Origin: Balneicella halophila
GTDB lineage: Bacteria; Bacteroidota; Bacteroidia; Bacteroidales; Balneicellaceae
Length of the DNA: 64,000 nucleotides
Assembly (NCBI RefSeq): GCF_003096835.1
Contig: NZ_QENZ01000003.1
Coordinates: 248,001 to 312,000, forward strand
Direction: 5' to 3'
Shown here: in pieces, positions 10,238 through 15,144 of the stretch
How positions within the stretch are numbered: position 1 is the stretch's first letter
How the letters are laid out: each line of letters starts with the position of its first letter
The notes under the pieces: generated by a model
The model's input: only the letters and a program-made list of their open reading frames with translations
Told to the model about the DNA's origin: nothing
Databases searched by the model: none
Made by a program: the position numbers and the translations under genes

Positions 10238-13006
10238 TTAATGTGCTTCTAGCCAATTATCGCCCACTCCAATTTCTGCAGTCAATGGTACGCTAAGTTT
10301 TACGGCTTCTTCCATTCCAATCTTAATAATACGTTTTAGCTCTTCTAGCTCTGTTCTCAAACAATTAAAATTCAATTCATCATGCACTTGAATAATCATT
10401 TCAGATTTTAAACCTTCTTCTTTCATCATCTTGTGGATTCGAATCATTGCTAACTTGATAATATCTGCTGCAGAACCTTGAATAGGAGCATTAATAGCAT
10501 TACGCTCAGCAACGCCACGCACTATCGCATTATTGGAATTGATATCTTTCAAATAACGACGCCGTTGCATAATGGTTTCTACGTAGCCCCTTTTGCGTGC
10601 TTTATGCACAGCCTCATCCATAAATTCTTTGACTTTAGGATAAGTTTTGAAGTAACCATCAATTAACTGCTTTCCGTCGGTACGTGAAATATCTAAACGC
10701 TCTGCTAAGCCCCATGCAGAAATACCATAGATAATACCAAAATTGGCTGTTTTCGCTTGTCGTCTCATTTCAGGTGTCACTTCTTCTAATTTTACCTTAA
10801 AAACCTTTGCGGCAGTAGCGGTGTGGATATCCTCATTTCTATTAAATGCGGCTAACATTTCCTCGTCTTCACTAAGATGAGCCATGATCCTTAATTCTAT
10901 TTGAGAATAATCAGCAGAAACAAAAATGTGTTCGTCATCTGATGGAATAAAAGCTTTACGAATATACCGTCCTTGTTCTGTACGAATAGGGATATTTTGT
11001 AGATTAGGGTTCGTGGAACTCAGGCGACCTGTCGATGTCTCGGCTTGGTTAAATGTGGTATGGATACGACCTGTTTTTTCTGAAATATAATGAGGCAATG
11101 CTTCCACATATGTCGAAATCAATTTCGACAAAGAGCGGTATGCCAATATTTTATTAATAATGGGATGCTTGTCACGTAATTTTACTAAAACCTTCTCTGA
11201 TGTAGAATATTGTCCAGAAGCTGTCTTTTTGGCTTTACTGTTCAGTTGCATTTTACCAAACAGAACTTCTCCTAACTGTTTCGGTGATGCTACATTTAAG
11301 TCCGGTTCATCAGCCATTTCTTTAATTTCTGCTTCTATCTCGTTGAGTTCTTCCTCTAATTTTTTCTTATAGTCCGATAAAAGTTCAGTATCTATCGTAG
11401 CTCCATTGTACTCTAACTGTGCCAGTACCCATACCAAAGGAATCTCAATATTATGAAATAAATCTAAGACTTTCCTTTCTTCTAACGTAGGTTGTAATAG
11501 ATGTTGCACTCGTAAGGTTAAACTAGCCTCTTCACAAGCAAATTGATGCAAAGTTTCCAAACTGAGATTTTTTGCAGATTTTTTATCTCTTCCTTTCCCC
11601 AATAAATCCTCAAAACGTTTTGGCATATAATTGAGTAATTGATGAACCACATAATCAAAATCATGCTTTAATTCCGGTTGCAACACATAATGGGCTAATA
11701 GCGTATCCCATAATTTGTTTTTTACCTCAACTCCATTCCAAAAAAGCGTCAAAAGTACTTGTTTGCAATCATGTGCAATCATTGTTAAATTTTCATCCCC
11801 GAATATGTGGTGAAATTCTTGCAGTTCTGCCTTATCGCTTAAAGGTACGTAAAAGGCTTCATCTTCTTTTAGACTGACTGCAAAGCCTAGACAATCATAT
11901 GAATCTTTCTGAGTAATCATGCGTATCGAATAGCGTTCTACTAAACACATCTCGGCTCTTAAATCCTGTCTTCTTTCGGCAGTATCTATTAGGAAATAGC
12001 GCTGTATAGGTAAAGACTGTGATACTTTCTCTTCAGTGTATCCAAAGTTCCCATCATCAAAAAGTGAAGTTTGTTGAGAGCTATCTGCTTTTGTTTTATC
12101 AGTCGGTTTATTCTTTGAATCTATATTATTTGTGTTCTTATTGAAAATACGCTTAGATAAGGTAGCAAATTCCAACTCTCTGAAAATCTCTTGCAATGCT
12201 TCAAAATTTGGTTCTTCATGTTCTAGAGACTTAGCATCTAACTTAATTGGGACATCAAGCTTGATTGTAACCAACATTTTAGACATTCTTACTTGGTCTG
12301 CATATTCTATTAAATTTTGCTTCTGCTTCCCTTTAAGATCTTCAACATTATCTAATAGATTCTCTATACTCCCGTATTTTTCAATCAATTTTTGCGCTGT
12401 TTTTGGTCCAATACCAGGACATCCCGGAATATTATCCGAGGCATCTCCCATTAAGCCTAGTATATCAATTACCTGCAATGGATTTTCTATACCAAAACTT
12501 TCTCTAACTTCATCGACACCCCAAACTTCTTCTTCCTTTCTGCCTCCTCGTTTGGGCTTAAACATAAAGATATTTTTGGTGACTAACTGTGCATAATCTT
12601 TATCCGGAGTCATCATATAGACTTCAAAACCTTCATCAGCGGCTTGATGTGCTAAAGTTCCGATAACGTCATCTGCCTCATAATTATCTACAGAGAGACA
12701 TGGAATATTAAATCCTTCTATTATTTTCTGAATATAGGGAATAGAATCTCGTATCTCCTCCGGCATTGGAGGGCGTTGTGCCTTGTATTCTTTAAATTCT
12801 TCATGTCTAAATGTTTTTCCTTTTGGATCAAAAACGACAGCTATATGGGAAGGATTTTGTTTCTCTAAAACTTCTAATAAACTATTTGTAAATCCAAGTA
12901 TTGCCGAGGTGTTTAATCCATTTGAAGTAAATCGGGGATTTCTAATAAATGCGTAATAAGAACGATATATTAATGCATAAGCATCAAGTAAGAAAAGTTT
13001 TTTCAT
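10238..13006 (-). CDS. polA: DNA polymerase I with degenerate proofreading domain
   Basis: A 922-residue repair and Okazaki-fragment polymerase. The N-terminal 5'-3' exonuclease domain (residues 1-290) carries YEADDVIGT and GLMGDASDNIPG. The C-terminal polymerase domain has motif A DYSQIELR (699-706), motif B RRQAKTANFGIIYG (748-761) and motif C VHDEL (874-878), all intact. The central 3'-5' exonuclease fold (about 335-510) is recognisable but its catalytic positions are changed: Exo I reads ITQKDS where DTETDS is expected (365-370), Exo II lacks its Asp (about 412-420), and Exo III reads FACEE where YxxxD is expected (489-493). The start at 13006 is chosen because it begins MKKLFLLDAYALIYRS like other PolA proteins; the 34-residue upstream extension is not conserved-looking. 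Confidence 0.97.
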   Translation of the reverse strand: MKKLFLLDAYALIYRSYYAFIRNPRFTSNGLNTSAILGFTNSLLEVLEKQNPSHIAVVFDPKGKTFRHEEFKEYKAQRPPMPEEIRDSIPYIQKIIEGFNIPCLSVDNYEADDVIGTLAHQAADEGFEVYMMTPDKDYAQLVTKNIFMFKPKRGGRKEEEVWGVDEVRESFGIENPLQVIDILGLMGDASDNIPGCPGIGPKTAQKLIEKYGSIENLLDNVEDLKGKQKQNLIEYADQVRMSKMLVTIKLDVPIKLDAKSLEHEEPNFEALQEIFRELEFATLSKRIFNKNTNNIDSKNKPTDKTKADSSQQTSLFDDGNFGYTEEKVSQSLPIQRYFLIDTAERRQDLRAEMCLVERYSIRMITQKDSYDCLGFAVSLKEDEAFYVPLSDKAELQEFHHIFGDENLTMIAHDCKQVLLTLFWNGVEVKNKLWDTLLAHYVLQPELKHDFDYVVHQLLNYMPKRFEDLLGKGRDKKSAKNLSLETLHQFACEEASLTLRVQHLLQPTLEERKVLDLFHNIEIPLVWVLAQLEYNGATIDTELLSDYKKKLEEELNEIEAEIKEMADEPDLNVASPKQLGEVLFGKMQLNSKAKKTASGQYSTSEKVLVKLRDKHPIINKILAYRSLSKLISTYVEALPHYISEKTGRIHTTFNQAETSTGRLSSTNPNLQNIPIRTEQGRYIRKAFIPSDDEHIFVSADYSQIELRIMAHLSEDEEMLAAFNRNEDIHTATAAKVFKVKLEEVTPEMRRQAKTANFGIIYGISAWGLAERLDISRTDGKQLIDGYFKTYPKVKEFMDEAVHKARKRGYVETIMQRRRYLKDINSNNAIVRGVAERNAINAPIQGSAADIIKLAMIRIHKMMKEEGLKSEMIIQVHDELNFNCLRTELEELKRIIKIGMEEAVKLSVPLTAEIGVGDNWLEAH

Positions 13007-13119: not shown

Positions 13120-13161
13120 CAAAAAATAAAGAGAACAATTAAATTTGAAACTGTTCTCTTT
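13120..13161 (-). terminator. Terminator of the AspT-family transporter gene
   Basis: A perfect 10-bp stem (AAAGAGAACA at 13128-13137 with TGTTCTCTTT at 13152-13161, 14-nt loop). On the minus strand it is followed by ATTTTTT (13127-13121), 25 bases after the transporter stop codon. It separates the transporter from polA. Confidence 0.8.
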
Positions 13162-13185: not shown

Positions 13186-14856
13186 TTATGTCAAAAATAA
13201 AACCAAGAGTTGCGCCATCAAGATTCTTAAAAACATAGTAAGTGGATATACTGTTGCATACGCAGTTGCCTGTGCTTGAAGTGGTGCTATATTATTGGCA
13301 AATTCTAAAGCAGGCGGATCAGTCATAGAACCTGAAAGAAATCCGCAAATTGTCAGATAATTAATTTTCATCATCCGAGCTATCACTCCGACAACAAATA
13401 ATGGAACGAAAGTAATAATAGAAGCATATAGCATCCACATATAGCCTCCGCTAACAATAGTTTCCCAAAAGTGTTTACCTGAACCTAAGCCTACACAGCC
13501 GAGGAAAAGCACTATACCCATCTCACGTATAAAATAATTAGCACTCGGAGTCATATAAAAATCAAACCTGCCAATGCGACCTTTGTGCCCTAGTAATAGC
13601 GCAATAATTAATGGTCCTCCTGCGAGTCCTAATTTGGCTGGAGCTGGTAAGCCAGGAATAAATATAGGAATACTACCTAATAGAATACCTAGAAAGATAC
13701 CAATAAACAAAGGAGTTAGGTTGGGGTGTGATAGATCTCTGAGCGAATTTCCTAAGAAATTTGCTATCGCATCCATTTTTTCTCTACGCCCAACTACACG
13801 AATTGTATCTCCAAACTCCAGACGAGTTTCACCAGAAGGAATAATTTCTGATTCTCCACGAAATACTCTGGTAATATTAGCAGGGAATAATGACGATAGA
13901 TTTATGTCCATCAAACTTTTTCCTGCCAGTTTTCTATTGGTCATTCTGATATGGCGCATACTCAACTCTCCAGTAATTTCAAATTTCTTTTGAATGGATA
14001 CATCTCCTATGAGTAATTCTACATCGGACAATGCATCGCGCCCACATAACCCGATAAGAACATCACCTTTCTCCAAAAGCATCTTAGCCTCTGGAACAAC
14101 AAACTCATTATTTCTCCATACTCGAGAGACTACAAAGTCTTTATGAATAGTAGAAGTCAATGAAGCTAAGGTTTGTCCAAAAAGGTTCGGATTGCTTACT
14201 TCCGCTCTTATTGTTTGAATATTACCTGAAGAAGATGATACGTCTGCTTTATATTTCTGCACCTCATCATCTACTTTTATTTTAAAAAATATACGAACCA
14301 ATGCCATGACTAAAATAATTCCCAAAATTCCAAACGGATAAGCAACTGCGTATGCCATACCCGACAATTCTGAAAGTTCACTGCCATTAGCAAATTGATC
14401 TGTAATAAGTGACTGTACCGCACCCAAACTTGGGGTGTTCGTAACTGCCCCTGTGAAAAGTCCTGCCACTACTGCTGTATCTAAATCAAAAAGATATTTA
14501 ACTGCAAAAGCACAAGCTACACCTAACAAAACAATTAATGCAGCAAGCATATTTAGCTTGATTCCATTATTTTGCAAGGATGAGATAAACCGTGGTCCTA
14601 TTTCTATTCCTATAGAATAAACAAATAATATAAGCCCAAACTCTTTAACAAAGTGCAGTACATTATGATCGATATTTGCCCCTAAATGTCCCACAAGTAG
14701 GCCGACAAACAATACGCCTGCGATTCCTAATTTGAGGCTACCTAATCGTAACTTGCCTAAAAAGATTCCAAAGGCTCCAACTAATGCAAGAAAAAGCAAG
14801 GTTGATGCTGTTCCCGTTTCCGTAAATATTTCCAATAGCTTTGACATAAAAAACAT
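13186..14856 (-). CDS. AspT/YidE-family transporter under B12 riboswitch control
   Basis: A 556-residue inner-membrane antiporter of the aspartate:alanine exchanger family. Two YidE-duplication membrane blocks (about 10-180 and 380-556) flank two central RCK_C (TrkA-C) domains (about 205-370, with the GDVLIGLCG and GDTIRVVGR signatures). Family members include the Tetragenococcus Asp/Ala exchanger and the Corynebacterium succinate exporter SucE, so a dicarboxylate or amino acid is the likely substrate. A cobalamin riboswitch and its promoter lie upstream on the same strand, and a terminator follows, so this is a single-gene B12-repressed unit. The start could also be the ATG at 14847 (MSKLLEIF), three codons in. 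Confidence 0.9.
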   Translation of the reverse strand: MFFMSKLLEIFTETGTASTLLFLALVGAFGIFLGKLRLGSLKLGIAGVLFVGLLVGHLGANIDHNVLHFVKEFGLILFVYSIGIEIGPRFISSLQNNGIKLNMLAALIVLLGVACAFAVKYLFDLDTAVVAGLFTGAVTNTPSLGAVQSLITDQFANGSELSELSGMAYAVAYPFGILGIILVMALVRIFFKIKVDDEVQKYKADVSSSSGNIQTIRAEVSNPNLFGQTLASLTSTIHKDFVVSRVWRNNEFVVPEAKMLLEKGDVLIGLCGRDALSDVELLIGDVSIQKKFEITGELSMRHIRMTNRKLAGKSLMDINLSSLFPANITRVFRGESEIIPSGETRLEFGDTIRVVGRREKMDAIANFLGNSLRDLSHPNLTPLFIGIFLGILLGSIPIFIPGLPAPAKLGLAGGPLIIALLLGHKGRIGRFDFYMTPSANYFIREMGIVLFLGCVGLGSGKHFWETIVSGGYMWMLYASIITFVPLFVVGVIARMMKINYLTICGFLSGSMTDPPALEFANNIAPLQAQATAYATVYPLTMFLRILMAQLLVLFLT

Positions 14857-14905
14857 CTAATAATTAATTTTTCAAAAACATAACACACAAAGAAGGATTA
14901 GTACC

Positions 14906-14950
14906 CTGCTTTGTATCGCGAAAGCAGTTCATTCAAAATTTACGATACAA
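14906..14950 (-). promoter_or_regulatory. Probable riboswitch expression platform (alternative hairpins)
   Basis: Two overlapping stems compete. One is CTGCTTT/AAAGCAG (14906-14912 with 14921-14927). The other is TTGTATCG/CGATACAA (14911-14918 with 14943-14950), whose far arm overlaps the 3' strand of the aptamer's closing stem (14948-14952). Closing the aptamer would free the first hairpin; opening it would favour the second. No strong U tract follows, so control may be at translation or through a non-canonical terminator. Confidence 0.45.
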
Positions 14951-15107
14951 GACAGGTCTCCTGGCTCCCCCCGCTCCTAACACCTTCCCACTCTTTTTTA
15001 TACTGAGCAGTGGTTTTTGTTAGCAGTCTTCATAAGAGGTTTACAGTTGCGCGTCAGCCTATGATTCTCACATAGTTCCCTATTAAATCCGTTAAGATAT
15101 CTTGAGT
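14945..15107 (-). promoter_or_regulatory. Cobalamin (B12) riboswitch aptamer
   Basis: Read on the minus strand, the conserved core elements appear in order: AATAGGGAA (15084-15076), GTGAGAATC (about 15071-15063), the GCTGACGCGCAACTGT segment (about 15058-15043), a GTGGGAAGGTG peripheral segment (about 14991-14981) and the B12 box AGCCAGGAGACCTGTC (14966-14951). A closing stem pairs CAAGA (minus, 15104-15100) with TCTTG (minus, 14952-14948). Such elements usually turn the downstream gene off when adenosyl- or methylcobalamin is present. The only gene downstream is the AspT-family transporter. Confidence 0.95.
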
Positions 15108-15136
15108 CTATTTCACTATTTGGATGAACGAAAGTG

Positions 15137-15144
15137 CAAAGTTA
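15137..15144 (-). promoter_or_regulatory. -7 promoter box of the riboswitch/transporter transcript
   Basis: On the minus strand the bases read TAACTTTG, matching TAnnTTTG, about 30 bases upstream of the aptamer's closing stem. Confidence 0.6.

Follow-up and report, generated by a model that had tools for sequence, protein, structure and literature searches.

Why would a bacterium place a single transporter gene under a cobalamin riboswitch, in a unit that holds no gene for B12 synthesis, B12 uptake or a B12-dependent enzyme? The question is raised by a locus of Balneicella halophila (Bacteroidota, Bacteroidales) that lies in a 64,000-nucleotide stretch of contig NZ_QENZ01000003.1 (positions 248,001 to 312,000), referred to here as the window, whose numbering is used for the locus. 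On the minus strand of the window, a cobalamin riboswitch (RF00174) precedes the gene of a transporter of the AspT/AAEx family. Tentatively, and with belief and doubt nearly in balance, we read this unit as a relief valve, repressed by B12, that serves the node of methylmalonyl-CoA mutase (MCM), and whose cargo would most likely be succinate. The OFF direction of the switch, export rather than import, and succinate as the cargo are what we infer.

The riboswitch unit and its transporter

The RF00174 model matched positions 14934-15119 (minus strand) over its full length (model positions 1-189 of 189) with 87.4 bits (cmscan, E 3.3e-20), against a gathering score of 31.5 bits, and this bears out the cobalamin riboswitch named in a preliminary description of the window. 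Read along the minus strand, the unit consists of a putative -7 promoter element, TAACTTTG (15137-15144), the aptamer, a hairpin with a 7-bp stem that we assign to P13 of the expression platform (14906-14927), the transporter gene (13186-14856, 556 amino acids) and a terminator-like hairpin with a T-run (13128-13161). P13 forms at -7.7 kcal/mol in a fold restricted to positions 14890-14945; once the sequence up to the start codon is included, a different structure is preferred. A P13-like hairpin is also visible in the riboswitches of relatives. The transporter may alternatively start at a second ATG in the same frame, at 14847.

Loop L5 of the aptamer carries CGCG (15050-15053), which is complementary to CGCG in the loop of P13 (L13, 14917-14920). 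When both loops were compared over 25 riboswitch sites (genomes and loci are given below by our G and L labels), 13 had CGCG in L5 and 11 had CCCG. A downstream CGCG, usually placed in a hairpin loop whose stem resembles GCTTT...AAAGC, was found by script in 12 of the 13 CGCG sites, the exception being G033; the pattern had first been noticed on four of them (B. halophila, G004, L008 and G213), and outside these four the agreement is 8 of 9. Sites with CCCG in L5 are followed by CGGG in 8 of 11 cases, the exceptions being the riboswitches of the G709 carboxylase and the G760 pyruvate formate-lyase gene and the second G728 site; the CGCG returned by the script for the G709 carboxylase riboswitch was not counted as L13. 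Judged by complementarity and covariation, one L5-L13 base pair is swapped from C-G to G-C, and this covariation is good evidence that the platform of the B. halophila riboswitch is real.

The preliminary description had also credited the unit with its own promoter and terminator. As to the promoter, TAACTTTG, read from 15144 to 15137, fits TAnnTTTG, which we take to be the Bacteroidota -7 consensus; counted by eye, such a box lies upstream of 11 of the 14 printed riboswitches, this one included. Scanning for sigma-70 promoters gave none upstream of the aptamer on the same strand. The hairpin after the gene (13 pairs, then the T-run) was the single site found by pattern, and the stretch holding it folds at -17.0 kcal/mol; the pattern alone is no better than chance, since shuffles average 1.6 such sites. 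The next gene on the same strand is polA (ATG at 13006). No gene for B12 synthesis, B12 uptake or a B12 enzyme lies within the transporter unit, as had been stated, and from the sequence the transcript plausibly carries the transporter gene only. A perfect E. coli-type TTGACA-17-TATAAT match (13194-13166, minus strand) overlaps the transporter stop codon and faces polA; in a Bacteroidota genome it is probably a coincidence. On the opposite strand, a 139-residue open reading frame (ORF) lies inside the transporter gene.

The transporter contains two stretches of Asp-Al_Ex (PF06826) and two of TrkA_C (PF02080), the layout of the AspT/AAEx family (TC 2.A.81). It passes TIGR01625, the AspT/YidE/YbjL duplication domain (244 bits, cut-off 72), as well as the NCBIfam 'putative transporter' model NF003007/PRK03818 (621 bits, cut-off 449), which we take to be the YidE model. 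Thus, the AspT/YidE-family assignment made earlier is confirmed. In the tree, the clade of this protein is split from the ordinary YidE homologues of the order by a 100/100 branch. The closest relative of the transporter, L007 (74% identity), sits in a metagenome-assembled genome (MAG) that carries the name Acidobacteria (DolJOral78, a label that hints at a dolphin mouth as its origin), and the L007 contig is possibly a mis-binned piece of Bacteroidota.

Recurrence of the link and B12 metabolism

The clade was assembled from a collection of genome contigs, from two sets of 247 and 393 genomes of the order, and from 395 genomes of the phylum, all of these sets overlapping. From 14 loci of the contig collection, the tree omits L010 (regarded as a duplicate of the G122 stretch), L018 and L019 (38 and 37% identity) and L020 (a fragment); twelve controls came from distant matches, with L032, L034-L036 and L040-L045 left out as partial or more distant. 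A same-direction RF00174 riboswitch lies upstream of the transporter in 8 of 26 clade members versus none of 18 ordinary homologues (Fisher p 0.014), 12 of these controls having been searched with stricter filters that lose weak matches and seven having less than 3 kb upstream (L025, L026, L028, L029, L037, L054 and L058). With near-duplicates merged, the counts are 7/24 versus 0/18 (p 0.014), and among loci with about 3 kb or more upstream they are 8/22 versus 0/11 (p 0.031, or 0.033 after merging). The survey of orthologues that the preliminary description had proposed thus finds the riboswitch again, within the clade and at none of the ordinary homologues.

The link is spread over several families of the order and a MAG labelled Ignavibacteriota, and comes in five operon layouts. 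The transporter stands alone behind the riboswitch in B. halophila, G004 (61% identity) and L008 (68%), where the aptamer is weaker (39.8 bits). In G213 it precedes genes for a carboxyltransferase, a biotin carboxylase and a biotin carboxyl carrier protein; in G709 it follows the biotin carboxylase, carrier and carboxyltransferase genes and is itself followed by a metY-type gene. In G701 and G233 it comes after nrdD and an nrdG-like gene (the latter read by eye), both genomes also having NrdJ, and in the Ignavibacteriota-labelled L016 it comes after metE and before pckA (GTP). The 'lone' transporter of the preliminary description therefore holds for three of these loci, the others being in apparent operons. 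A riboswitch precedes nrdD in G701, G233, G213 (by eye) and G709, and metE in L016, both being genes of B12-independent enzymes. Linked members are scattered over the clade in the tree, indicating that the link was gained or lost repeatedly.

MCM was found in all eight linked genomes. The MCM survey covered 23 genomes and leaves out G760, G100, G728, G120, G142, G664, G033, G128 and G702. Within it, the three genomes that lack MCM (G704, G150 and G790) also lack a riboswitch at the transporter; this would be expected if failure of MCM were the reason for the switch, but three genomes are few.

In the B. halophila genome (2.09 Mb, 98% complete), the large subunit of MCM is the sole match to the B12-binding domain PF02310, with a MutA-like gene ahead of it (558 bits, below the cut-off of 617). 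Methylmalonyl-CoA epimerase is present (148 bits, cut-off 115), followed by a carboxyltransferase gene (PF01039) that we read as mmdA and by small ORFs that by eye look OadG-like and like a biotin carrier. The succinate-to-propionate route thus appears to be encoded. MetH, which presumably carries PF02310, was not seen in the genome through this domain. NrdJ is a second B12 enzyme, and leaves the valve reading less settled.

The genome holds five RF00174 matches above the cut-off and one below. Two of these riboswitches lead TonB/BtuFC-like uptake units and one leads an operon for cobalamin synthesis and cobalt uptake, judged from ORF content and mostly by eye; NCBIfam models support the TonB receptor and uroporphyrinogen-III methyltransferase, and for the BtuC-like and CbiL-like genes those models score best, yet below their cut-offs. 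Riboswitches of this family often serve B12 uptake or synthesis, and in G213 the genes just upstream read as cobalamin genes, so that a cobalamin precursor or related compound could be considered as the cargo, as the preliminary description did. Against this stand the absence of a B12 gene from the unit, the uptake genes that already follow two other riboswitches of the same genome (the permease matching BtuC best, below cut-off), and the carboxylase-adjoining clade members of G704 and G150, genomes without MCM and without NrdJ above its cut-off. We consider this cargo very unlikely.

If the cargo is instead succinate, the unit could work as follows. With enough cobalamin, the aptamer would bind its ligand, the L5-L13 kissing loop would form and expression of the transporter would be held down. 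When cobalamin is short, MCM would be unable to turn succinyl-CoA into methylmalonyl-CoA and propionate formation would stop; the riboswitch would then let the transporter be made, and this would release the backed-up dicarboxylate, succinate being the likeliest, and thereby let fumarate reduction and glycolysis continue. Repression is reported for most cobalamin riboswitches (PMC11575231), and we favour the OFF direction because metE, nrdD and TonB/salvage genes share the company of the riboswitch. An ON switch, considered in view of one carboxylase unit near mutAB, was rejected by inference from the TonB/cobalamin-salvage unit and from metE and nrdD in the regulon. In Xylanibacter ruminicola KHP1, propionate was formed only with added cobalamin, and succinate was then lower (P=0.07; PMC11575231).

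Genes preceded by the CGCG variant

The apparent wider regulon at the MCM node is a more interesting result than the valve itself. A core pattern of the CGCG-L5 variant was written from the transporter riboswitches of B. halophila, G004, L008 and G213, and a search with it is thus not unbiased. It gave 14 sites in 13 of the 393 genomes of the order, three of them being seeds (B. halophila, G004 and G213). RF00174 confirms 9 of the 11 non-seed sites, both G702 sites lying outside that check. Six of the 11 precede genes that we read as belonging to the succinyl-CoA/methylmalonyl-CoA node, three precede B12-uptake-like genes, and two are unclear (G664 and G033).

Three of the six node sites precede carboxylase genes without a transporter. 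In G164, where they lie near mutAB (MutB 1306 bits), and in G120, the order is biotin carboxylase, carrier protein, carboxyltransferase; in G142 it is carboxyltransferase, biotin carboxylase, carrier protein, behind a 94-residue ORF. This ORF had been taken by eye for a metE remnant, and the idea was dropped, as it has no Pfam match. In G760, the variant precedes two ThrE-family genes (PF06738 and PF12821) in a YjjP-YjjB-like layout. The G100 site leads an operon of 4-hydroxybutyryl-CoA dehydratase (853 bits to 1u8v, with CxxxC at 98 and Hx6C at 291), a NifU-like ORF, 4-hydroxybutyrate CoA-transferase (592 bits to 3eh7), and an iron alcohol dehydrogenase and an acylating-type aldehyde dehydrogenase, both named at family level only; this is apparently a complete route from succinyl-CoA through 4-hydroxybutyryl-CoA to crotonyl-CoA. 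A 4-hydroxybutyrate CoA-transferase gene (517 bits to 3eh7) also follows the variant in G728. The YjjPB and 4-hydroxybutyrate names rest partly on gene layout. The uptake-like sites are those of G128, before a TonB receptor and then cobalamin-salvage genes (salvage by eye), and the two of G702, before a TonB receptor and a lipoprotein.

Taken together, these sites suggest that in Bacteroidota and relatives cobalamin riboswitches, notably the CGCG/CGCG variant, might act as a metabolic points-switch at the succinyl-CoA/methylmalonyl-CoA node, opening B12-independent outlets: exporters of the YidE clade and YjjPB-like exporters, the 4-hydroxybutyrate route, and an acyl-CoA carboxylase. We put this forward as a proposal in which doubt somewhat outweighs belief. 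The outlet of the blocked node at low B12 would differ between genomes, being the exporter in B. halophila, the YjjPB-like pair in G760 and the route to crotonyl-CoA in G100. Beside the pair in G760 (L109:2054-5976), two more riboswitches precede pyruvate formate-lyase (TIGR01255) and an nrdD-like gene, a cluster that suggests a wider B12-linked shift of fermentation.

Some elements of such a switch are known. At metE, a riboswitch is reported to hold down the B12-independent substitute while B12 is plentiful (PMC9600662). The aptamer family is shared with our case, and so, on our reading, would be the control of a B12-independent substitute; metE and other isozymes, however, are second enzymes for the same reaction, whereas the transporter would bypass MCM by discarding its substrate. 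The B12-dependent counterpart is present in every linked genome, as the substitute class requires, and also in 12 genomes without the link. In Veillonella, a cobalamin riboswitch is reported at MCM, with mutA named in one source (PMC9600662) and the large subunit in another (PMC7160235). The same riboswitch family is thus tied to the same metabolic step, there on the gene of the B12 enzyme itself, unlike here. The closest parallel to the G100 operon is a riboswitch upstream of 4-hydroxybutyryl-CoA dehydratase in Tannerella; in the accessible part of that source it is filed under adenosylcobalamin biosynthesis, and no tie to succinate or MCM is drawn (PMC7160235). A literature search, with most subscription journals outside its reach, gave no paper joining a cobalamin riboswitch with AspT or with propionyl-CoA carboxylase. 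Riboswitch control of B12-independent substitutes is already known; here, on our reading, the enzyme substituted for would be MCM.

If the points-switch exists, one vitamin would decide whether propionate, succinate or butyrate precursors are released. Among the B12-dependent steps of gut and rumen Bacteroidota, the conversion of succinate to propionate is a main one, and the released acid matters to hosts and cross-feeding microbes; a riboswitch would here couple vitamin supply directly to the choice of fermentation product. A transporter clade without a function would gain a testable one, and B12 riboswitches would be seen to control not only substitute enzymes but also substitute exits, possibly by way of two exporter families that are unrelated to each other.

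Weighing the cargo

The succinate valve suggested in the preliminary description is supported by its context, namely the recurrence of the link, MCM in the linked genomes, the epimerase, and the variant before the YjjPB-like pair and the 4-hydroxybutyrate route; the carboxylase partner, the MCM genomes without a link and the NrdJ of B. halophila leave it unsettled. Among further points, family membership likens the transporter to SucE1 of Corynebacterium glutamicum, an AAEx protein reported as a succinate exporter (PMC9527358), and E. coli YjjPB is also reported to export succinate (PMC10717943); B12 control, which we predict for our locus, is not mentioned for either in the accessible parts of these papers.

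A number of observations weigh against a succinate valve, and the first of them concern the link. At the gathering score, 18 of the 26 clade members lack a riboswitch, 14 of them with about 3 kb or more upstream and four with less; in its available sequence the closest relative, L007, is one that lacks it. Among the 20 genomes with MCM, the transporter lacks a riboswitch in twelve. Might the riboswitch be real, and its position upstream of the transporter a chance relict? Such elements are common in the order (39 of 41 genomes), one in B. halophila has no clear gene behind it, and the bare L007 locus would agree. A relict would hardly recur in eight of the 26 members and five layouts with a covarying kissing loop, however, and we regard this explanation as very unlikely.

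Other contrary points bear on physiology. B. halophila seems able to make B12 (read mostly by eye), and shortage may therefore be rare. X. ruminicola KHP1 is described as having no riboswitch near its pathway genes (PMC11575231), and a valve of this kind is thus no necessity for a succinate producer. Fibrobacter succinogenes with a frameshifted yidE and six other variations is reported to match the wild type in the amount of succinate made (PMC5442110). In addition, the G760 pair belongs to the ThrE family, which also holds threonine/serine exporters, and its YjjB-like part scores 87 of 249 bits in the NCBIfam model.

A further objection is the acyl-CoA carboxylase, the commonest partner of the transporter (5 of 26 clade members). 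Intact genes adjoin it, on either side, in G213, G709, G704 and G150, and in G090 they are decayed; G704 and G150 have no MCM. Export of succinate would leave a rise of the carboxylase at low B12 unexplained, whereas export of methylmalonate would explain it. At low B12, propionyl-CoA would be carboxylated to methylmalonyl-CoA, which MCM could not use, and methylmalonate, or another acid from the carboxylase product, would leave the cell as the free acid. Because the carboxylase adjoins the transporter, this is a serious rival, and the variant before carboxylase genes without a transporter in G164 (near mutAB), G120 and G142 speaks for it, as does the transporter-carboxylase pair of G704 and G150, which has no outlet through MCM. 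With 722-761 bits, however, the carboxyltransferases of G213, G709 and G164 stay short of the 999 that MmdA calls for, and TIGR00514, the model for acetyl-CoA carboxylase, accepts the biotin carboxylase of G709 (674 versus 626.5); we thus do not assign the carboxylase to propionyl-CoA, and a role unrelated to methylmalonate would also fit its B12 control. The transporter also stands alone in B. halophila, G004 and L008, and the 4-hydroxybutyrate operon points to succinate. Overall, we judge methylmalonate or a related acid to be an unlikely cargo. In the 1.2-Mb genome G090, decayed carboxyltransferase and biotin carboxylase pieces lie upstream of the transporter (L086:9524-11092), in the order that is intact in its sister G709.

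The protein itself gives little licence to transfer a cargo from its homologues. In the 26 clade members, a stretch of the third transmembrane segment (TM3) reads G-x-[D/E]-x-G-P-R-F, with the acidic place taken by S in G090 and by N in G704. The B. halophila sequence is IGIEIGPRF, and that of G150 is IGIDTGPRF, seen in the printed translation and missed by the script pattern. Ordinary YidE homologues of the order have GLQVGPGF in 14 of 18 cases and close variants in the other four, with Q or K plus G or S at the places of the clade's acid and Arg in all 18; the use of GLQVGPGF as a mark of membership is our own, not a published one, and the B. halophila protein thus falls outside it. Counted by hand, Arg76 in TM3 of AspT aligns to Glu in the transporter, a further point against the valve; a role of Arg76 in transport is reported in the title of a paper cited by PMC9527358. 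Given this motif and the misfit to AspT, the cargo of AspT should not be assumed here, and that of YidE not without reservation. E. coli YidE is called a potential glutarate transporter in a review, where its overexpression raised the glutarate titre by 38% (PMC12861294). The B. halophila protein resembles it in passing NF003007/PRK03818, and we set the report aside as proof of cargo because of the TM3 motif of the clade.

Might the transporter instead be an exchanger of amino acids (aspartate for alanine or glutamate, for instance) or of other acids, with B12 control tuning nitrogen or redox balance? Among solved structures, its full-length matches are AspT entries only (best E 3e-24), the AAEx family is reported to cover several acids (PMC9527358), a metY-type gene follows the transporter in G709, and threonine/serine export is conceivable for the G760 pair, which the same variant precedes. 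The score in the AspT equivalog model TIGR03802 falls far short of its cut-off, however (238 of 547 bits), an acidic residue stands at the place of Arg76, and several neighbours point to propionyl-CoA or succinyl-CoA metabolism. We hold amino-acid exchange to be distinctly unlikely.

Two further features of the B. halophila genome were observed. Its fifth riboswitch (L005:1240-1678; G000:C4:387998-388175, minus strand) lies between prmC and ligA and points away from ligA. The only same-strand ORF of at least 90 residues nearby is a 95-residue frame that overlaps prmC and crosses a palindromic terminator; the riboswitch may drive a short RNA, and a CGGAA downstream looks by eye like the complement of its L5 (TTCCG). 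Another carboxyltransferase gene, one of three in the genome (L072:1420-4466; G000:C3 near 1,034,303), is followed by an ORF that by eye looks like a transcarboxylase 5S or oxaloacetate decarboxylase subunit.

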